Source of the DNA: Streptomyces sp. NBC_00536
GTDB lineage: Bacteria > Actinomycetota > Actinomycetes > Streptomycetales > Streptomycetaceae
Length of the DNA stretch: 64,000 nucleotides
Reading direction: 5' to 3'
NCBI RefSeq assembly: GCF_036346295.1
Contig: NZ_CP107819.1
Span: 2,480,001-2,544,000 of the forward strand
The stretch's first letter is position 1. Every line of letters starts with the position of its first letter. Shown one piece after another: positions 2,391 through 42,441 of this stretch. Position numbers and translations under genes: made by a program. Below the pieces are notes generated by a model. The model searched no databases, was not told the origin of the DNA, and worked only from the letters and a program-made list of their open reading frames with translations.

Positions 2391-2753
2391 GTGAACGAAA
2401 TGCCCCGGGAGCACCGGACCGCCAAGTCCCTGCGGGTCCTGCTGGTCCCGCCGGACCCGGCCCTGGCCCTGCGGCTCGGCCTCCAGCCGGACATCGAGGT
2501 GGTGGCCGGGGCCACGGCCCGCCCGGCGGTGGCCCTGGTCCAGACCCCGGACGCGGTGGCCGCCGTCCACGAGGACGACCCGGAGTGCGCGGTCCTGGTC
2601 GTGACGGGCTCGGCCCACCCCGGCCTCCTGGACACCACCCTCGCCGCGGGCGCGGCAGGCCTGATCCTCCGCGACGTCCCGATCGAAGACCTGGCCGACT
2701 CCATCCGCCGAGCCTCCATGGGCGAAACGGTCATCGACCCATCCCTTGTTTAA
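2391..2753 (+). CDS. Stand-alone response-regulator receiver-like protein
   Basis: About 120 residues that read like the receiver half of a NarL/LuxR-type regulator: a beta-strand LRVLLVPPD, an alternating beta/alpha pattern, AVLVVTGSAHPGLLDTTLAAGAAGLILRD near the usual alpha4-beta5 region, and a tail IEDLADSIRRASMGETVIDP like the end of receiver domains. There is no DNA-binding helix-turn-helix afterwards; the gene stops where a linker would begin. The acidic phosphorylation pocket is not convincing, so it may be a non-phosphorylated adaptor. GTG at 2391 (or ATG at 2400) is chosen because earlier in-frame codons precede the domain without similarity. It is divergent from the MaoC operon. Its stop codon touches a dispersed repeat. 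Confidence 0.7.
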   Translation: MNEMPREHRTAKSLRVLLVPPDPALALRLGLQPDIEVVAGATARPAVALVQTPDAVAAVHEDDPECAVLVVTGSAHPGLLDTTLAAGAAGLILRDVPIEDLADSIRRASMGETVIDPSLV

Positions 2754-2788
2754 GCCCCGCCGGCGTTTGAGGCGCCCCCGGAGGGCCC
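2753..2788. repeat. Dispersed GC-rich repeat (core GCCGGCGTTTGAGG) between convergent genes
   Basis: This 36-bp stretch carries the core GCCGGCGTTTGAGGCGC followed by a CCCGGAGGG arm. It fills almost exactly the gap between the stop codons of the receiver-like gene and the thiolase. The same core recurs at 19.2, 19.35, 34.08-34.36, 36.35-36.65 and 42.18 kb. Its position between convergent stops suggests a terminator-like or REP-like role, which is inference. Confidence 0.75.
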
Positions 2789-19020: not shown

Positions 19021-19200
19021 CGACCCGCCATTCCAGCTCGCCGACACCCGAGGCACCCAATCCAGCCCCACCCCCCAGCCTCGCCGCCGCTTGAGGCTCC
19101 GCTCCGACCCCGCCATTCCAGCTCGCCGACACCCGAGGCACCCAATCCAGCCCCACCCCCCAGCCTCGCCGCCGCTTGAGGCACCGCTCCGACCCCGCCA
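19021..19200. repeat. 85-bp direct tandem repeat
   Basis: The sequence beginning CGCCATTCCAGCTCGCCGAC repeats with an 85-bp period (the TTCCAG landmark is at 19031, 19116 and 19201). Two copies are nearly identical; the third starts and then diverges into the dispersed repeat. Each unit contains a degenerate form of that repeat (GCCGCCGCTTGAGG). There is no gene. The 511-bp spacer from 18990 to 19500 holds only these repeats, dispersed-repeat copies and TGGCGCCA sites. Confidence 0.85.
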
Positions 19201-19202
19201 TT

Positions 19203-19240
19203 CCAGCCCCGCCGGCGTTTGAGGCGCCCCCGGAGGGCCC
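19203..19240. repeat. Dispersed repeat copy (core GCCGGCGTTTGAGG)
   Basis: The repeat runs from CCAGCCCCGCCGGCG through TTTGAGGCGCCCCCGGAGGGCCC. It is almost identical to the 2753-2788 and 19339-19375 copies. Confidence 0.8.
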
Positions 19241-19338
19241 ACTAAGGGCCAGCGCCCCCTCCACCCCAGCCCACCATCCAGCTTCACTGACGCCCGAGGC
19301 GCCCACTCCAGCCCTGCCTCCGCTTGAGGCGCCCGCTC

Positions 19339-19375
19339 CCAGCCCCGCCGGCGTTTGAGGCGCCCCCGGAGGGCT
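19339..19375. repeat. Dispersed repeat copy (core GCCGGCGTTTGAGG)
   Basis: Second full copy in this spacer, same orientation as the 19203 copy. A degenerate one (CCTCCGCTTGAGGCGC) lies just before it at about 19315-19331. Confidence 0.8.
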
Positions 19376-32113: not shown

Positions 32114-33352
32114 ATGAACGTCCGCCGTAGCGCCGCCACGCTCGCCGCCTCCGCCGTGCTCTGCGTGGGCGCCGCTCCCGCCGCCCTCGCCGCCCCCTCG
32201 CCGTCACCGGCTCCCGTGATCCCCTCCGGGCTGTTCGGCAAGAACGACCCGACCTACGACGGCGTCTGGCGCCAGTCCTTCGCCCTGCTCGCGCAGCAGA
32301 CGGTCGGCGTGCGGCCCGCGCCGCAGGCCGTCGAGTGGCTGACCGGCCAGCAGTGCGCGGACGGTGCCTTCGCCGCGTTCCGCGCGGATGCGGGTGCGGC
32401 CTGCGACGCGAAGACGCTGCGCGACACGAACGCCACCGCCGTCGCGGTGCAGGCCCTGAAGGCGCTGGGCGGCCATGACGAGGCCGTCAAGAAGGGCGCC
32501 GGCTGGCTGAAGTCCGTACAGAACGAGGACGGCGGCTGGGCCTACAACCCGGGCAGCCCGAGCGAGGGCAGCTCCACGCCCGTCGTGATCAGCGCGCTGG
32601 TCGCGGCCGGGGAGAACCCGGCCGAGGTGAAGTCGAAGGCGGGCAAGTCGGCCTCCGAGGCGCTCCTCTCCTTCCAGCTGGGCTGCTCGGCCGAGCCCGC
32701 CGCCGACCGCGGCGCCTTCGGCTACCTGCCGCAGGACGGCAAGCTCGACGCGAACGCCGACGCCTCGGCCGCCGCGGTGCTCGCCGCGCTCGGCAAGGGC
32801 CCGGTCGTGGCCCCGGCCGCCGCGGACACCCCCGCCGCGGCGCTGGAGTGCCCGGCCGGGGCGAAGGACCCGGCGGCCGCCGCCCAGGGCGCGGCCGGAT
32901 ATCTGGCCGAGGCCCTCAAGAAGGACGGTCACCTGACCGTGAAGACCCCGGGCTCCGACGCGGTCACCCCGGACGTCGGCAACACCGCCGACGCCGTGAT
33001 CGCGCTGGCCGCCGCCGGGCACAAGCAGTCCGCCGCGGGCGCGCTGGAGTGGCTCAAGGGCAACACCGCCGAGTGGTCCAAGGGCAACCCGGCCGCCCTC
33101 GCCACGCTGATCCTGACCGCGCACGCCACGGGCAACGACCCGAAGGCCTTCGGCGGCGCCGACCTGGTGTCCGCGCTGAACGCGACCGGCCCGGCGGACA
33201 CGGCCACGGCAACCCCGAAGCCGAAGGCATCCGACGCGGGTTCTTCCTCATCCTCGAACGGGAACGTCTGGTGGATCATCGGCGCGGGTGCCGCGGCCGG
33301 TGTGGGCATCGGCATCCTGCTGAGCGGCCGCAAGAAGAAGCAGCAGCTGTGA
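32114..33352 (+). CDS. Secreted, membrane-anchored prenyltransferase-like barrel protein; candidate B12-capture protein
   Basis: 412 residues. A signal peptide (to about ALAAPS, residue 30) is followed by tandem helix-pair repeats: WLTGQQCADGAFAAF, ALKALGGHDEAVKKGAGWLK, SVQNEDGGWAYNPG, DTNATAVAVQAL, GNTADAVIALAAAG. These resemble squalene-cyclase/prenyltransferase repeats, the fold also used by transcobalamin and intrinsic factor. A low-complexity Thr/Pro/Lys/Ser linker leads to a C-terminal transmembrane anchor (VWWIIGAGAAAGVGIGILL) with an RKKK tail. The cyclase catalytic motif is absent. Being first behind the B12 riboswitch and ahead of the ECF transporter genes suggests cobalamin binding; this is inference. 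Confidence 0.8.
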   Translation: MNVRRSAATLAASAVLCVGAAPAALAAPSPSPAPVIPSGLFGKNDPTYDGVWRQSFALLAQQTVGVRPAPQAVEWLTGQQCADGAFAAFRADAGAACDAKTLRDTNATAVAVQALKALGGHDEAVKKGAGWLKSVQNEDGGWAYNPGSPSEGSSTPVVISALVAAGENPAEVKSKAGKSASEALLSFQLGCSAEPAADRGAFGYLPQDGKLDANADASAAAVLAALGKGPVVAPAAADTPAAALECPAGAKDPAAAAQGAAGYLAEALKKDGHLTVKTPGSDAVTPDVGNTADAVIALAAAGHKQSAAGALEWLKGNTAEWSKGNPAALATLILTAHATGNDPKAFGGADLVSALNATGPADTATATPKPKASDAGSSSSSNGNVWWIIGAGAAAGVGIGILLSGRKKKQQL

Positions 33353-34038
33353 TCCGCGGCCGCACCGTACCGTCCGCCCTGTCGCTTCCGGTGGCCTTCG
33401 CCATCGCGCTGGGCATGGTGCTGACCCTGCTGAGCGCCGCGCCCGCGCTGGCGGCCGGTTACCGGTACTGGTCCTTCTGGGACGGTACGGGCGGCACGTG
33501 GACGTATGCCACCCAGGGCGCCTCCCTGGTCCGGCCCAAGGACGGCTCGGTCCAGGGGTTCCGCTTCGCGGTCAGCCAGGACGCGGCCGACCAGTCGGCG
33601 AAGCCGCGCGCCGCCGCCGACTTCGGGGCGATCTGCTCCGGCACGGCCGCGGTCGAGGGCCGCAAGCGGGTCGCCCTGGTCGTCGACTTCGGCGTCCCGG
33701 CGGACGCCCCGTCCGGCGAGACCCCGCCGCAGGACGCGCCGCGCACGGCCTGCGCGGTGGTGGCCCCGGACGCGACGGCCGCCGATGCGCTGGCGGAGGT
33801 GGCGAAGCCGCTGCGGTACAACAGCTCCGCGCTGCTGTGCGCGATCTCCGGCTATCCGAAGCAGGGCTGCGGTGACCAGGTCGGCGCGGCCGAACCGCAC
33901 CCATCGGCCTCCGCCTCCGCTTCCGCGTCGTCCGACACCGGAAGCGGCCCCTCCGTGGGCCTGCTGGCAGGCATCGCGGCCGTCATCACCCTGGCCGCGG
34001 CCGCCACCTGGCAATCCCGCCGCCGCCGAACCCAGTGA
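33349..34038 (+). CDS. Small secreted membrane-anchored protein of the B12 operon
   Basis: 229 residues. The signal peptide ends near PALAAG, and the mature domain starts YRYWSFWDGTGGTWTYATQG and contains four Cys (ICSG, TACAVV, LLCAISG, QGCGDQ) that may form disulfides. A Ser/Ala linker and a transmembrane anchor (VGLLAGIAAVITLAAAATW) with an Arg-rich tail follow. The pattern corresponds to an uncharacterised family known from S. coelicolor SCO2322 (from memory). The GTG start overlaps the preceding stop and its own stop overlaps the EcfT start, so it is tightly coupled. Confidence 0.75.
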   Translation: MIRGRTVPSALSLPVAFAIALGMVLTLLSAAPALAAGYRYWSFWDGTGGTWTYATQGASLVRPKDGSVQGFRFAVSQDAADQSAKPRAAADFGAICSGTAAVEGRKRVALVVDFGVPADAPSGETPPQDAPRTACAVVAPDATAADALAEVAKPLRYNSSALLCAISGYPKQGCGDQVGAAEPHPSASASASASSDTGSGPSVGLLAGIAAVITLAAAATWQSRRRRTQ

Positions 34039-35504
34039 CCCACCCGGACGGCCCGGGGGCAGCAAATCCAGCCCGCCCGGCGTTTGAGGGCCCGCCGGAG
34101 GCCACACCAGCCGCGGAAGCCGAATCCGGCAGCACGGCCACCGTTGCCTCCGGCGGCGCCTCAAACGCCGGCGAGGCTGGTTTTGGCAGCGCTGAGTGCA
34201 TCGGCGAGGCTGGTTTTGGCGGCCCGGACCAGGCACATCCAGCCCACCCGGCTGAATCCGGCGCCCCGGGCGCGGCACATCCAGCCGACCAGGCTGATAG
34301 GGACCGCCCGGCTGACCTGGGCCGCCCAGGGGCGGAAAACCCAGCCCGCCCGGCGTTTGAGGGCCCGCCGGAGGCGAGCGGGGCGACGTACGCGCGGCCC
34401 CCTCGGCGGAAGCGCTGGGAGGCTCCGGCCGCCGCGCGGCGGAACGCGCTGCACGCCGGGGCATGGTGGCTCTGGGCACTCGGCCTCGCCACAGCCGCAT
34501 CCCGGACCACCAACCCCCTCCTCCTCGGCCTGATCGTCGGCGTCGCCGGTTACGTGGTCGCGGCCCGCCGCACCACCGCCCCCTGGGCCCGTTCGTACGG
34601 CGCCTTCGTCAAGCTCGGCCTGGTCGTGATCGGCCTGCGGCTGGTCTTCTCGATGCTGCTGGGCTCCGCCATCCCCGGTTCGCACACCCTCTTCACCCTC
34701 CCCGAGATCCCGCTGCCCGCCTGGGCGCAGGGCATCCGGTTCGGCGGCAAGGTCACCGCCGAGCAGCTGGTCTTCGCCTTCTACGACGGCGCCAAGCTCG
34801 CCGCCCTCCTCATCTGTGTCGGCGCGGCGAACGCCCTCGCCAATCCGGCCCGGCTGCTGAAGTCGCTGCCCGCCGCCCTGTACGAGGCGGGCGTCGCCGT
34901 CGTCGTCGCCATGACCTTCGCGCCGAACATGGTGGCCGATGTGGTCCGGCTGCGGACCGCCCGCCGTCTGCGCGGACGCCCCACGGGCGGGGTGAAGGCG
35001 ATCCTCCAGATCGGGCTGCCGGTCCTCGAAGGCGCCCTGGAGCGTTCCGTGGCCGTGGCCGCGTCGATGGACGCGCGCGGGTACGGCCGTACCGCCCAGG
35101 TCCCGCCCGCCGTCCGGCACACCACCAACGTCCTCACCCTCGGCGGGCTCCTCGGCGTCTGCGCCGGTACGTACGGACTCCTCGCGGCCGAAGGCGCCGG
35201 GTACGGCCTGCCCGTCCTCCTCATCGGCCTCGCGCTCGCCCTCGGCGGCCTGCGGCTCGGCGGCCGGCGCAGCGTCCGTACCCGCTACCGCCCCGACCGG
35301 TGGGGGGCGCGGGCCTGGCTGGTGTCCGGGTCCGGTGCGGCCGTCGCCGCGCTGATGATCCACGCCGGGTCGCTCGACCCGGAGGGGCTGCGGCCCGGTG
35401 TGGTGCCGCTGGTCGCGCCCGGTCTGCCGCTGTGGCCCGCGGCGGCGGTCCTGATCGGCCTGCTCCCCGCCTTCGTGGCCCCCGTCCCCCCGAAGGAGGG
35501 CTAG
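34035..35504 (+). CDS. ECF transporter transmembrane protein EcfT (CbiQ-like) with repeat-derived N-terminus
   Basis: 489 residues. From ~residue 135 it is a normal EcfT/CbiQ: hydrophobic segments WWLWALGLATAASRTTNPLLLGLIVG, SYGAFVKLGLVVIGLRLVFSMLL and LAALLICVGAANALANP, and the ATPase-coupling Ala-Arg-Gly motif in AASMDARGYGR, with a second charged loop RLRTARRLRGRPTGG. The first ~115 residues are unusual: NPARPAFEGPPEA (twice) and ASGGASNAGEAGFG are translations of the dispersed DNA repeat in both orientations. Relatives normally lack such a region. GTG 34035 overlaps the previous stop; a later start would also be functional, so the true N-terminus is uncertain. Confidence 0.85.
   Translation: MTHPDGPGAANPARPAFEGPPEATPAAEAESGSTATVASGGASNAGEAGFGSAECIGEAGFGGPDQAHPAHPAESGAPGAAHPADQADRDRPADLGRPGAENPARPAFEGPPEASGATYARPPRRKRWEAPAAARRNALHAGAWWLWALGLATAASRTTNPLLLGLIVGVAGYVVAARRTTAPWARSYGAFVKLGLVVIGLRLVFSMLLGSAIPGSHTLFTLPEIPLPAWAQGIRFGGKVTAEQLVFAFYDGAKLAALLICVGAANALANPARLLKSLPAALYEAGVAVVVAMTFAPNMVADVVRLRTARRLRGRPTGGVKAILQIGLPVLEGALERSVAVAASMDARGYGRTAQVPPAVRHTTNVLTLGGLLGVCAGTYGLLAAEGAGYGLPVLLIGLALALGGLRLGGRRSVRTRYRPDRWGARAWLVSGSGAAVAALMIHAGSLDPEGLRPGVVPLVAPGLPLWPAAAVLIGLLPAFVAPVPPKEG
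34065..34374. repeat. Dispersed repeats inside the EcfT reading frame
   Basis: Direct copies of the repeat are at 34065-34103 and 34338-34374 and an inverted copy at 34146-34181. The direct copies share GCCCGGCGTTTGAGGGCCCG; the inverted one has GCGCCTCAAACGCCGG. The first direct and the inverted copy can pair as a long stem with a ~42-bp loop. All are read through in frame. Confidence 0.85.
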
Positions 35505-35508
35505 ACAC

Positions 35509-37566
35509 GTGATCCGTTTCGAACAGGTGTCCGTCACCTACGACGGCCGGCGTGAGCCGTCGCTCCGGAACGCGGACTTCACCGTCCCCGAGGGCGAGCT
35601 GACGCTCCTCGTCGGCCCGTCGGGCGTAGGAAAATCCACTCTCCTCGGCGCGGTGTCCGGGCTGGTCCCGCACTTCACCGGCGGCACCCTGCGCGGCCGG
35701 GTCACGGTCGCGGGACGCGACACCCGTACCCACAAGCCGCGCGAGCTGGCCGATGTCGTCGGCACGGTCGGCCAGGACCCGCTCGCACACTTCGTCACGG
35801 ACGTGGTCGAGGACGAGCTGGCCTACGGCATGGAGTCCCTGGGCCTGGCACCTGCGGTGATGCGGCGCCGGGTGGAGGAGACCCTGGACCTGCTGGGCCT
35901 GAACGAACTCCGCGACCGCCCCATCACCACCCTGTCCGGCGGCCAGCAGCAGCGGGTCGCCATCGGCTCGGTCCTGACCACGCACCCGAAGGTCCTCGTC
36001 CTCGACGAGCCGACGTCCGCGCTCGACCCGGCGGCGGCCGAGGAGGTCCTGGCCGTCCTGCAACGCCTGGTCCACGACCTCGGCACCACCGTGCTGATGG
36101 CGGAGCACCGCCTGGAACGCGTGATCCAGTACGCCGACCAGGTCCTGCTCCTCCCCGCCCCCGGCGCGCCCGCCCTCCTGGGCCCCCCATCCGCCATGAT
36201 GACCATCTCCCCGGTCCACCCCCCGGTCGTCGCCCTGGGCCGCCTGGCGAACTGGTCCCCCCTCCCCCTCTCCATCCGCGACGCCCGCCGCCAGTCCGCC
36301 CCGCTGCGCACCCGACTGTCCGCCCACTCAGCGCAGCCAAACCCAGCCCCGCCGGCGTTTGAGGCGCCGCCGGAGGCAACAGCGGCCACGCTGCCGGATT
36401 CGCCGTCCGCGGCTGGTACGGCCTCCGGCGGGCCCTCAAACGCCGGGCAGGCTGAATTTGCCCCCCTGGCGCAGCCACATCCCGCCCCGCCGACCCACTC
36501 AGCGCAGCCAAATCCCGCCTCTCCGACCCACTCAGCGCAGCCAAACCCAGCCCCGCCGGCGTTTGAGGCGCTGCCGGAGGCAACAGCGGCCACGCTGCCG
36601 GATTCGCCGTCCGCGGCTGGTACGGCCTCCGGCGGGCCCTCAAACGCCGGGCAGGCTGGATTTGCCCCGCCGGCGATTGAGGCGAAGGACCGCGCCCGGG
36701 GCCAGCGGCTGCGGCGGGTGTTCCGGCGGGCCGCGGGGGCCGAGGAAGCCACCGGGACCGGGACCGGCGTCGGGACGCGGGCCGCCGAGGCCCCCGTGAC
36801 CGCCGCCCACCTCGCCGTCCGGCGCGCCCGGACCGAGGTCCTCCACGACATCACCCTCACCCTCGCCCCCGGCGAAACCGTCGCCCTCATGGGCCGCAAC
36901 GGCGCCGGCAAGTCCACCCTCCTGTCCACCCTCGTCGGCACGGTCGAGCCCGCCTCCGGCCACCTCCGCGTCGGCGGCAAGGCCCCGCACCGCACCCCGC
37001 CCGCGGAGATGGTCCGCCGCGTGGGCCTCGTACCGCAGGAGCCCCGGGACCTGCTGTACGCCGACACGGTGGGCGCCGAGTGCGCGGCGGCGGACGCGGA
37101 CGCCGGGGCCGCGCCGGGCACCTGCCGGGCGCTGGTGTCGGCCCTGCTGCCGGACGTCCCCGACGACACGCACCCCCGTGACCTCTCGGAGGGCCAGCGC
37201 CTGGCCCTCGCCCTGTCGCTCGTCCTCACCGGCGGCCCCGCACTGCTGCTCCTGGACGAGCCGACCCGCGGCCTGGACTACGCCGCGAAGGCCCGCCTGA
37301 TCGGCATCCTGCGGGACCTCGCCGCCCGCGGCCACGCGATCCTCCTGGCCACGCACGACGTGGAGCTGGCGGCCGAGCTGGCGCACCGGGTGGTGATCCT
37401 GGCGGGCGGCGAGATCGTCGCGGACGGGCCGACGGCCGAGGTGGTCGTCTCCTCCCCCGCCTTCGCCCCGCAGGTCGCGAAGGTGCTGGCCCCGGGCCAC
37501 TGGCTCACGGTCTCCCAGGTGGCCGCGGCCCTGGCCGGGCAGGCACCAGAGGGGGAGGGAGCGTGA
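35509..37566 (+). CDS. ECF transporter ATPase, two ABC domains fused (EcfA-EcfA')
   Basis: 685 residues. Domain 1 (~1-235): Walker A VGPSGVGKST, signature LSGGQQQR, Walker B VLVLDEPTSALDP. Domain 2 (~420-670): Walker A GRNGAGKST, signature variant LSEGQRLAL, Walker B LLLLDEPTRGLD. A complete heterodimer is therefore in one chain. The ~170-residue linker contains two near-identical 68-codon units (PAPPAFEAPPEA...ASGGPSNAGQ) translated from the dispersed DNA repeat. The GTG start follows a GGAGGG ribosome site that lies in the end of EcfT. The stop overlaps the S-component start. Confidence 0.93.
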   Translation: MIRFEQVSVTYDGRREPSLRNADFTVPEGELTLLVGPSGVGKSTLLGAVSGLVPHFTGGTLRGRVTVAGRDTRTHKPRELADVVGTVGQDPLAHFVTDVVEDELAYGMESLGLAPAVMRRRVEETLDLLGLNELRDRPITTLSGGQQQRVAIGSVLTTHPKVLVLDEPTSALDPAAAEEVLAVLQRLVHDLGTTVLMAEHRLERVIQYADQVLLLPAPGAPALLGPPSAMMTISPVHPPVVALGRLANWSPLPLSIRDARRQSAPLRTRLSAHSAQPNPAPPAFEAPPEATAATLPDSPSAAGTASGGPSNAGQAEFAPLAQPHPAPPTHSAQPNPASPTHSAQPNPAPPAFEALPEATAATLPDSPSAAGTASGGPSNAGQAGFAPPAIEAKDRARGQRLRRVFRRAAGAEEATGTGTGVGTRAAEAPVTAAHLAVRRARTEVLHDITLTLAPGETVALMGRNGAGKSTLLSTLVGTVEPASGHLRVGGKAPHRTPPAEMVRRVGLVPQEPRDLLYADTVGAECAAADADAGAAPGTCRALVSALLPDVPDDTHPRDLSEGQRLALALSLVLTGGPALLLLDEPTRGLDYAAKARLIGILRDLAARGHAILLATHDVELAAELAHRVVILAGGEIVADGPTAEVVVSSPAFAPQVAKVLAPGHWLTVSQVAAALAGQAPEGEGA
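36326..36665. repeat. In-frame 204-bp duplication built from inverted dispersed repeats
   Basis: The segment beginning CTCAGCGCAGCCAAACCCAG repeats with a 204-bp (68-codon) period; landmark AACCCAGCCCC is at 36340 and 36544. Each unit holds one direct repeat (CGCCGGCGTTTGAGGCGC) and one inverted copy (GCCCTCAAACGCCGGGC) about 55 bp apart, able to form a stem. The two units differ by only a few bases, so the duplication is recent or homogenised. Confidence 0.9.
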
Positions 37567-42085: not shown

Positions 42086-42297
42086 AAACCCAGCCCGCCC
42101 GGCGTCGCGCCCGCGCCACGGGCAGCACGCCAAACCCAGCCCGCCCGGCGAGCCCAGGCACGCCAAATCCAGCCCGCCCGGCGTTTGAGGGCCCGCCGGA
42201 GGCACAAACGGCCGACCGACGAACGACGGCCTGCTCCCGCTGCCCGCCCCCACCGGCCCCGGGGGCCCAAATCCAGCCCGCCCGGCGATTGAGGGCC
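42086..42297. repeat. Cluster of dispersed repeats downstream of cyp125
   Basis: Partial copies (AACCCAGCCCGCCCGGCG) occur at 42087-42104 and 42133-42150, a full copy with TTTGAGGGCCCGCCGGAGGC at 42165-42203, and a variant with GCGATTGAGGG at 42270-42297. All are in one orientation. They occupy most of the ~500-bp gap between the convergent P450 and GT87-PAP2 genes; the rest (41943-42080 and 42300-42440) shows nothing recognisable. Confidence 0.8.
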
Positions 42298-42441
42298 GCC
42301 CACCGAAGGCGCCCAGGTGGCGGCACGGGCCCACCGGGCGGATCCTGACAGGACGCGGCGATCCAAGAAGGGGGTGCCGGAGCGGGTGAAGCCCCCGCCC
42401 CGGCACCCCCTCGCCACGCCACGCGAAGCGCAGCGGAATGG

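Follow-up and report, generated by a model that had tools for sequence, protein, structure and literature searches.

The stretch of DNA considered here, called the window, spans 64,000 nucleotides (positions 2480001-2544000) of an 8.66-Mb contig of Streptomyces sp. NBC_00536, a bacterium with a genome of 9.15 Mb and a GC content of 72%. The nearest named relatives of the window found by search are Streptomyces. Two neighboring genes in this window, encoding an EcfT-like protein and a fused EcfA protein of an energy-coupling factor (ECF) transporter, carry in frame several copies of a short DNA repeat that is dispersed over the genome and resembles the repetitive extragenic palindromic (REP) elements.

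The ecf genes and their repeats

The EcfT-like protein has 139 residues ahead of its conserved core, and the repeats lie within about the first 115 of these. The protein stays below the Pfam and NCBIfam thresholds, and its name is taken from gene order and two kinds of faint similarity, a CbiQ hit that misses the Pfam cutoff (E 0.003) and low-scoring hits to EcfT chains of solved structure (E 0.006-0.14). These hits and its position both indicate the transmembrane partner of the transporter, from a lineage that the models miss. EcfA is a fusion of two ATP-binding cassette (ABC) domains, each half of which contains strings that we take to be the Walker A, signature and Walker B motifs, and the gene after it matches an ECF substrate component. 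The features of both genes are the following:

34035..35504, forward strand: EcfT-like gene, 489 aa, with a GTG start that overlaps the stop of the upstream gene
34062..34190, reverse strand: composite head-to-head module in EcfT, 129 bp or 43 codons, cores 82 nt apart, reversed relative to the EcfA copies
34062..34102, forward strand: EcfT stem-loop, core 34077, arms GCCC/GGGC, read as PARPAFEGPPEA
34146..34190, reverse strand: EcfT stem-loop, inverted core 34159-34171, arms CGCC/GGCG, read as ASGGASNAGEAGF
34335..34375, forward strand: third EcfT element, core 34350, read as PARPAFEGPPEA
35509..37566, forward strand: fused EcfA gene, two ABC domains, 685 aa, repeat-bearing linker at about residues 265-430
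36333..36465, forward strand: EcfA composite copy 1, direct core 36352 and inverted core 36434, read as PAFEAPPEA...ASGGPSNAG
36537..36668, forward strand: EcfA composite copy 2, direct core 36556 and inverted core 36638
36653..36682, forward strand: truncated variant element, one-mismatch core 36670, loop GGCGATTGA, read as PPAIEA

The exact core of the repeat, CCGGCGTTTGAGG, occurs eight times in direct (2760, 19212, 19348, 34077, 34350, 36352, 36556, and 42178) and three times in inverted orientation (34159, 36434, and 36638) in the window, which are the numbers that an earlier note, made from the sequence alone, had given as a minimum. When up to two mismatches are allowed, 17 matches are obtained; 100 shuffles gave 3.79 on average and 10 at most. 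Seven of the eleven exact copies, together with the one-mismatch copy at 36670, are located inside the EcfT and EcfA genes, and the majority of the copies in the window are therefore coding. The earlier note had counted six copies in these genes, which is too few, and had described the repeat as lying mostly between genes, which fails for the window but is correct for the wider genome, of which 27% was examined. Its central claim, that a dispersed REP-like repeat is present in frame and in both orientations within the two coding sequences, is supported, and the peptides it named, PAFEGPPEA, PAFEAPPEA, and ASGG(A/P)SNAG, were found as stated. The genome-wide count of the core that it had proposed amounts to 429 copies, against none for a reversed-pattern control.

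The copies in the two genes are not merely alike in their cores. The two EcfA composites, of 132-133 bp, are 98% identical at an offset of 204 bp (68 codons), and the EcfT composite is 90% identical to the EcfA module over 129 bp in reverse orientation. Elsewhere in the genome, the matches of at least 110 bp that were listed reach at most 83% identity, with shorter half-matches of up to 100%. Therefore, one composite module is common to the two neighboring genes, in opposite orientations, and is open in both. In plasmid and phage collections, no match to it was found at E 1e-5 with the low-complexity filter on.

Structure and distribution of the repeat

A consensus was built from aligned copies in 1.264 Mb of the genome (103 copies outside genes according to a first gene caller). 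It measures about 42 bp and consists of GGcCAAntCCAGCC, followed by a stem-loop and, in most copies, by CCGGAGG. The loop is fixed, with nine nucleotides (GGCG[T/A]TTGA), and CCAGCC flanks the hairpin. In the same 1.264 Mb, and with G-T pairs allowed, stems of 4 bp or longer enclose 120 of the 123 occurrences of the loop GGCGTTTGA and 50 of the 55 of GGCGATTGA. Eight other strings served as control loops: five of them never had such a stem (one of the five was never present), and the remaining three had it in 4 of 19 (GGCGCTTGA), 1 of 2 (GGTGTTTGA), and 1 of 2 occurrences (reversed AGTTAGCGG). The arms, mostly CGCC/GGCG, GCCC/GGGC, or GTCC/GGAC, differ by subtype and stay complementary. At the two outer positions of the stem, 170 and 172 of the 178 sequences have Watson-Crick pairs, compared to shuffled means of 90.6 and 82.8. 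This covariation is found between about three subfamilies and thus represents few independent events. A longer form of the repeat runs on into a hairpin of the GGGGCGGAGCCCC type. The profile of the aligned copies fades at both ends and shows none of the terminal repeats by which a miniature inverted-repeat transposable element (MITE) would be recognized.

To place the repeat relative to genes, a simple codon-based gene caller was applied to 2.464 Mb (27% of the genome), comprising stretches around the window and the middle of the chromosome. The 305 elements in this part are distributed over convergent gaps (138 in 73.4 kb), tandem gaps (130 in 179.3 kb), and divergent gaps (17 in 89.3 kb), while 15 lie in called genes (2.12 Mb) and 5 across a gene edge. 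This corresponds to 1.9 elements per kb in convergent, 0.73 in tandem, and 0.19 in divergent gaps and to 0.007 per kb in called genes. The element is thus approximately 100-fold depleted from called genes, with convergent gene ends being favored. The three copies of EcfT are not among the 15, because the caller starts EcfT at 34554. All of these counts were made with the second of two callers. The first and cruder one had assigned 16 of 119 exact cores to genes; 7 of these were EcfT and EcfA copies, and several lay at gene starts or within questionable calls. One in-gene call of the second caller sits right at the 3′ terminus of its gene (2836201) and may be trivial.

The copies outside the two ecf genes in the window, found by scanning for the core, are:

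2743..2785, forward strand: intergenic copy, core 2760
19195..19373, forward strand: intergenic cluster, cores 19212 and 19348, with degenerate copies nearby at 19084 and 19169
42161..42300, forward strand: intergenic copies, core 42178 and variant 42282

Clustering of this kind is common, as only 17 of 172 elements in the 1.264 Mb are isolated by at least 200 nt. Among neighbors at most 200 nt apart, 22 are head-to-head (+-), and in 7 of these pairs, including 3 from the ecf genes, the distance between cores is exactly 82 nt. The other orders (++ 39, -+ 27, -- 21) have no 82-nt mode. With respect to the surrounding genes in the 1.264 Mb, the element has the same orientation in 29 and the opposite orientation in 37 cases in tandem gaps, and the same orientation as the nearest convergent gene in 34 cases against 49, so that there is no clear preference overall. 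In tandem gaps it lies closer to the end of the upstream gene in 46 of 66 cases.

These data bear on the idea that the hairpin acts as RNA, in 3′ end processing or mRNA stability, and was spread by selection for that role, with the coding copies as by-products. The co-varying outer pairs, the fixed loop, the convergent enrichment, and the proximity to upstream gene ends would all suit such a role, whereas the lack of an orientation preference and the absence of any Rfam family at gathering score over the copies argue against it; we regard it as unlikely. An intrinsic terminator was rejected, as the consensus has no T run and no clear orientation preference exists. A known RNA family was rejected likewise: the sole gathering-score match in the window is a tRNA, and a naRNA4 match over an EcfA copy (E 0.8, 21.4 bits against a cutoff of 59.5) was taken as chance.

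The repeat is also unevenly distributed among species. Among 101 Streptomyces genomes, the number of exact cores ranges from 0 to 429, the window genome being the top of the sample, and this spread suggests bursts. Among 181 genomes sampled across the class outside Streptomyces, 18 contain one or two exact cores, which is chance level, and the others none, while 11 of the 16 genomes sampled within the genus have some. The repeat is thus genus-restricted in that sample. A run of exclusively plus-strand cores among 100 listed places was dismissed as a listing artefact, since the window's own minus copies are absent from those places.

Reading frames and protein context

The short element can be read in six frames. 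One contains a stop, two are arginine-rich (5-8 Arg/Lys per approximately 15 residues), and three yield peptides of the PAFE, SNAG, and PQTP types. In the called genes of the 2.464 Mb, the PAFE frame is used nine times, the PQTP frame four times, and the SNAG frame twice, with no use of the arginine-rich or stop-containing frames; EcfT adds two PAFE copies and one SNAG copy. All in-gene copies found therefore lie in the three frames that give a peptide rich in proline, alanine, glycine, and serine. That the coding copies are without stops, which had been called unusual, is unremarkable by itself, since five of the six frames are open; the informative part is the absence of the two arginine-rich frames.

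The 2.464 Mb contain, besides the ecf genes, at least four others in which the element is present. A gene for an HrpB helicase (L143:6618-9485) has three in-frame copies between the helicase core and HrpB_C, and one for a biotin carboxylase resembling MCC-alpha, with an MCC-alpha BT domain, has two (L227:8287-10491). A SpoIIE-type phosphatase, the domain of which is matched in two stretches, has one copy (L123:11618-12661), and a Band 7 protein has three copies ahead of its SPFH domain (L229:17417-19549). In relatives of the MCC-alpha-like gene, intact, degenerate, and empty states occur at both sites. Intact PQTP-type copies are found in L292 and L296 and intact PAFE- or PAIE-type copies in L292, L298, L299, and L302; this motif scan covered 11 of 30 loci and omitted L300, the frame of which ends early, and L304-L321. 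These genes weigh against the explanation that local duplication and gene conversion took place within the ecf operon alone and that the element otherwise does not enter genes. It would account for the 98% likeness of the EcfA modules at 204 bp and for the middle part that the EcfT and EcfA modules share and that was not found elsewhere at that identity. Since inverted EcfA copies in relatives moreover require nine changes for nine rows of the tree described below, this explanation is very improbable.

For EcfT, the question is whether the repeats are translated. The GTG at 34035 overlaps the upstream stop, and the next in-frame ATG, GTG, or TTG is found only at 34554, inside the conserved membrane domain. 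Of the 132 orthologous loci, 115 have an in-frame NTGA start at which an upstream frame of at least 100 codons terminates (in 4 the frame is shorter, and 13 have no such start), and several relatives have long low-complexity N-terminal extensions that begin at the overlapping start. Alternatively, the start could lie downstream, for example at a CTG, in which case the repeats would be untranslated and ordinary intergenic copies at a gene end. In-frame CTG codons are present at 34317 and 34449, the N-terminal codons score as non-coding in the codon model, which starts the gene at 34554, and the literature on intragenic REPs cautions that, owing to misannotation, a large number of the REPs assigned to predicted N-termini could in fact be extragenic (PMC3733652). 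Given the conserved overlap, the extensions in relatives, and the absence of any conventional start in between, such a late start is quite unlikely, and the EcfT N-terminus is likely translated, as judged from the arrangement of start codons. A late start is moreover inapplicable to EcfA, HrpB, and the MCC-alpha-like gene, because these have conserved domains on both sides of the element.

The orthologs were compared in 132 loci (147 minus 15 duplicates), with the EcfA linker being delimited in 117. An intact stem-loop, with a stem of at least 3 bp, is present in 29 of the 117 linkers, and the frames used are PAFE (37), PQTP (8), and SNAG (2, both in this window), with none in any other frame, including the arginine-rich ones. 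Far from being universally conserved, the linker varies from 25 to 206 residues across 108 linkers, and those without an intact element span 25-203 residues. Judging from its composition and length variation, it is probably disordered. Matches to linker DNA at E 1e-6 outside the ecf genes, either in other loci or in the 1.264 Mb of this genome, were obtained for 41 of the 108 linkers (9 with a single hit), compared to 1 of 108 reversed linkers. On a tree of 108 rows, made from EcfT and EcfA domain 1, the intact element requires 12 changes, losses included, at least 9 of which are forced by well-supported branches. The EcfA linker has thus gained or lost the repeat many times across the genus. 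As the shuffled mean is 22.7 changes, the element is also clustered by descent. Inverted copies, present in nine rows, require nine changes (shuffled mean 8.7).

In EcfT the repeat is rarer. Its loop motif appears in the N-terminal stretch at three of the 119 loci that have an NTGA start, namely this window, L040, and L048, the latter two having one direct copy each in the PAFE frame. The single core of L040 has arms CTCC/GGAG, a further compensated stem variant, and is read as PAFEELG. L001, the closest relative in EcfT (96%), has a stretch of 34 residues ahead of the conserved core that is free of the repeat, and its EcfA contains two direct copies. The presence of the element in EcfA follows lineage and partly copy number: of 41 genomes with a resolved linker and a known count, the window genome included, 4 out of 10 with at least 20 exact cores have an intact linker element, against 1 out of 31 with fewer (Fisher p = 0.009). 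The earlier note had held that the same peptide segments in orthologs from species without the intergenic repeat would refute its reading. One genome without exact cores (G004, locus L096) has a degenerate PAIEARGSGGGAP segment in its linker, which speaks mildly in that direction and also fits an old insertion.

A second, unrelated dispersed repeat, of the GGGGCGCGGGGAACTGCGCGA type, is found in frame in the EcfA linker of four related loci of another Streptomyces clade. L202 and L203 have its 21-base core, and L204 and L207 a related form that was judged by eye. The 21-mer has 48, 67, 55, and 33 copies in the genomes G007, G026, G009, and G022 and 641 in G059, but none in the window genome, and the reversed control gave none. 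A short regular expression for this family also matched L013, L022, L029, L040, and L109, which were not counted as second-family linkers. As other lineages have tandem expansions of different short peptides at the same two places (GAQPQAGS and GAQPKAGA types in the EcfA linker of L013 and L020; HGAAAADGAQAPTG type at the EcfT N-terminus of L010), the EcfA linker and the EcfT N-terminus look like general expansion sites.

The peptide might also have been co-opted as a selected flexible tether between the two ABC domains. The recurrent presence of the repeat at the same linker in many lineages, the degenerate remnants without an intact hairpin in 6 of 108 rows, and the exclusive use of frames rich in proline, alanine, and glycine agree with this. 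On the other hand, 69 of 108 rows are classed as having neither repeat, linkers without an intact element vary in length between 25 and 203 residues, a different repeat provides an Arg/Gln-bearing linker in another clade, and purifying selection alone can explain the choice of frame, which together make a selected PAFE/PQTP/SNAG tether improbable.

Immediately upstream of the ecf genes, positions 33349-34038 encode an SCO2322-family protein with a C-terminal GPS-CTERM domain, which is possibly a surface-sorted partner of the transporter. It is adjoined by a gene for a prenyltransferase-toroid-like protein (32114-33352).

Interpretation and comparison with known systems

The repeat is multicopy, structured, situated mainly at gene ends and strongly depleted from genes. 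With a probability of roughly 0.8, we consider it a lineage-specific REP-like dispersed element that invades genes where a linker peptide rich in proline, alanine, glycine, and serine is tolerated. Copies would be spread widely by some copying machinery, and insertions in folded domains, or in frames with a stop or many arginines, would mostly be purged. Insertions in flexible linkers, termini, and loops would be tolerated and could then grow by local duplication, resulting in long and probably disordered linkers. The ecf module may have been copied between the two neighboring genes, or into both from a source that was not found in the genome.

Several observations weigh against this interpretation, in addition to the non-coding score of the EcfT N-terminal codons. 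The two inner stem pairs are near-invariant and give no covariation signal, and the frame counts are not independent, the copies being linked by descent and local duplication. In G002, a copy-rich genome with 190 cores, the linker was resolved and does not contain the element. The second family gives a peptide with arginine and glutamine in the same linker, and arginine as such is therefore not excluded there. The filled and empty sites that were compared have diverged too far to reveal a target-site duplication, and none was found. Lastly, a search for Y1_Tnp linked no transposase to the repeat; other transposase families were not searched.

The ecf genes and their relatives offer a cultivable system in which intergenic repeat DNA can be watched becoming protein: many lineages and two unrelated families can be compared at one linker, the steps can be counted, and a bias in frame is visible. 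This provides a direct route to asking where flexible linkers originate and to what extent conserved proteins tolerate insertions. It is also a warning that, at such repeats, gene callers may place gene starts wrongly. A bolder generalization, towards which we lean rather less than away from it, is that selfish hairpin repeats routinely supply the inter-domain linkers of Streptomyces proteins. In that case, the EcfA linker would be a genus-wide landing pad on which this family settled many times and an unrelated one in another clade, the element would be protein-safe in three of its six frames, and mobility of non-coding DNA would be a main source of new disordered linker.

The core CCGGCGTTTGAGG and the 17- to 21-base stretches of either repeat that were tried were not found in the papers searched; strings of 11-13 bases matched, among the papers listed, only ones with seemingly unrelated titles, and of the papers listed for REP-like or interspersed repeats of Streptomyces none has a title that describes this family. 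Nor is Streptomyces mentioned in the main text of Di Nocera et al. (2013; PMC3733652). Other repeats within genes have been published, so the term unusual, applied to the coding copies by the earlier note, holds only in a relative sense. Rickettsia palindromic elements (RPEs) and their Wolbachia counterpart are found in intergenic DNA and also as in-frame parts of conserved protein-coding genes, one such product being active (PMC2229807, PMC10969869, PMC3733652), and the Streptomyces repeat shares both the palindromic nature and this double location. Most RPEs measure about 105-150 bp and have terminal inverted repeats, with RPE-4 and RPE-6 being equated with short CGTC repeats, whereas the Streptomyces unit has about 42 bp, a 4-bp stem, and a fixed 9-nt loop; the two are set apart by description only. 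The enterobacterial RU elements are likewise small, dispersed, and open within annotated genes, but their units are longer (103-168 bp); this comparison, too, is by description only (PMC2759123).

The likeness to REPs is closer. More than 100 copies, a mostly extragenic location in unidirectional and convergent gaps, and a short stem-loop are REP-like features, and opposite-orientation dimers with a regular spacing (82 nt) resemble those of REPs and bacterial interspersed mosaic elements (BIMEs). Unlike the GTAG/CGTC REPs, the Streptomyces repeat has no tag, combines a short stem with a long fixed loop, and has no REP-associated tyrosine transposase (RAYT) that could be found. Within 8 nt of 170 stem-loops, the 5′/3′ counts were 0/0 for GTAG, 0/0 for CTAC, 0/1 for CGTC, and 0/1 for GACG, and GTAG followed by CCAGCC had no match in the window. 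A RAYT-driven REP is not supported, as the window genome has only a 47-position Y1_Tnp fragment and no match was obtained in the copy-rich G002, G051, and G074; in G085, with 163 cores, there are seven Y1_Tnp matches. Intragenic REPs form dimers and clusters, encode up to 43-82 residues, and were suggested to be tolerated in linkers and loops; two Xanthomonas species even carry distinct REPs at roughly the same position in recB (PMC3733652). In-frame palindromic repeats, intragenic REPs, and the suggestion of linkers and loops were thus already known, as far as these sources go. What is new, within the literature searched, is the Streptomyces family itself with its fixed loop and variable stem and without a GTAG/CGTC tag, its three-frame use in both orientations, and the occupation of one linker in many lineages by two unrelated families.

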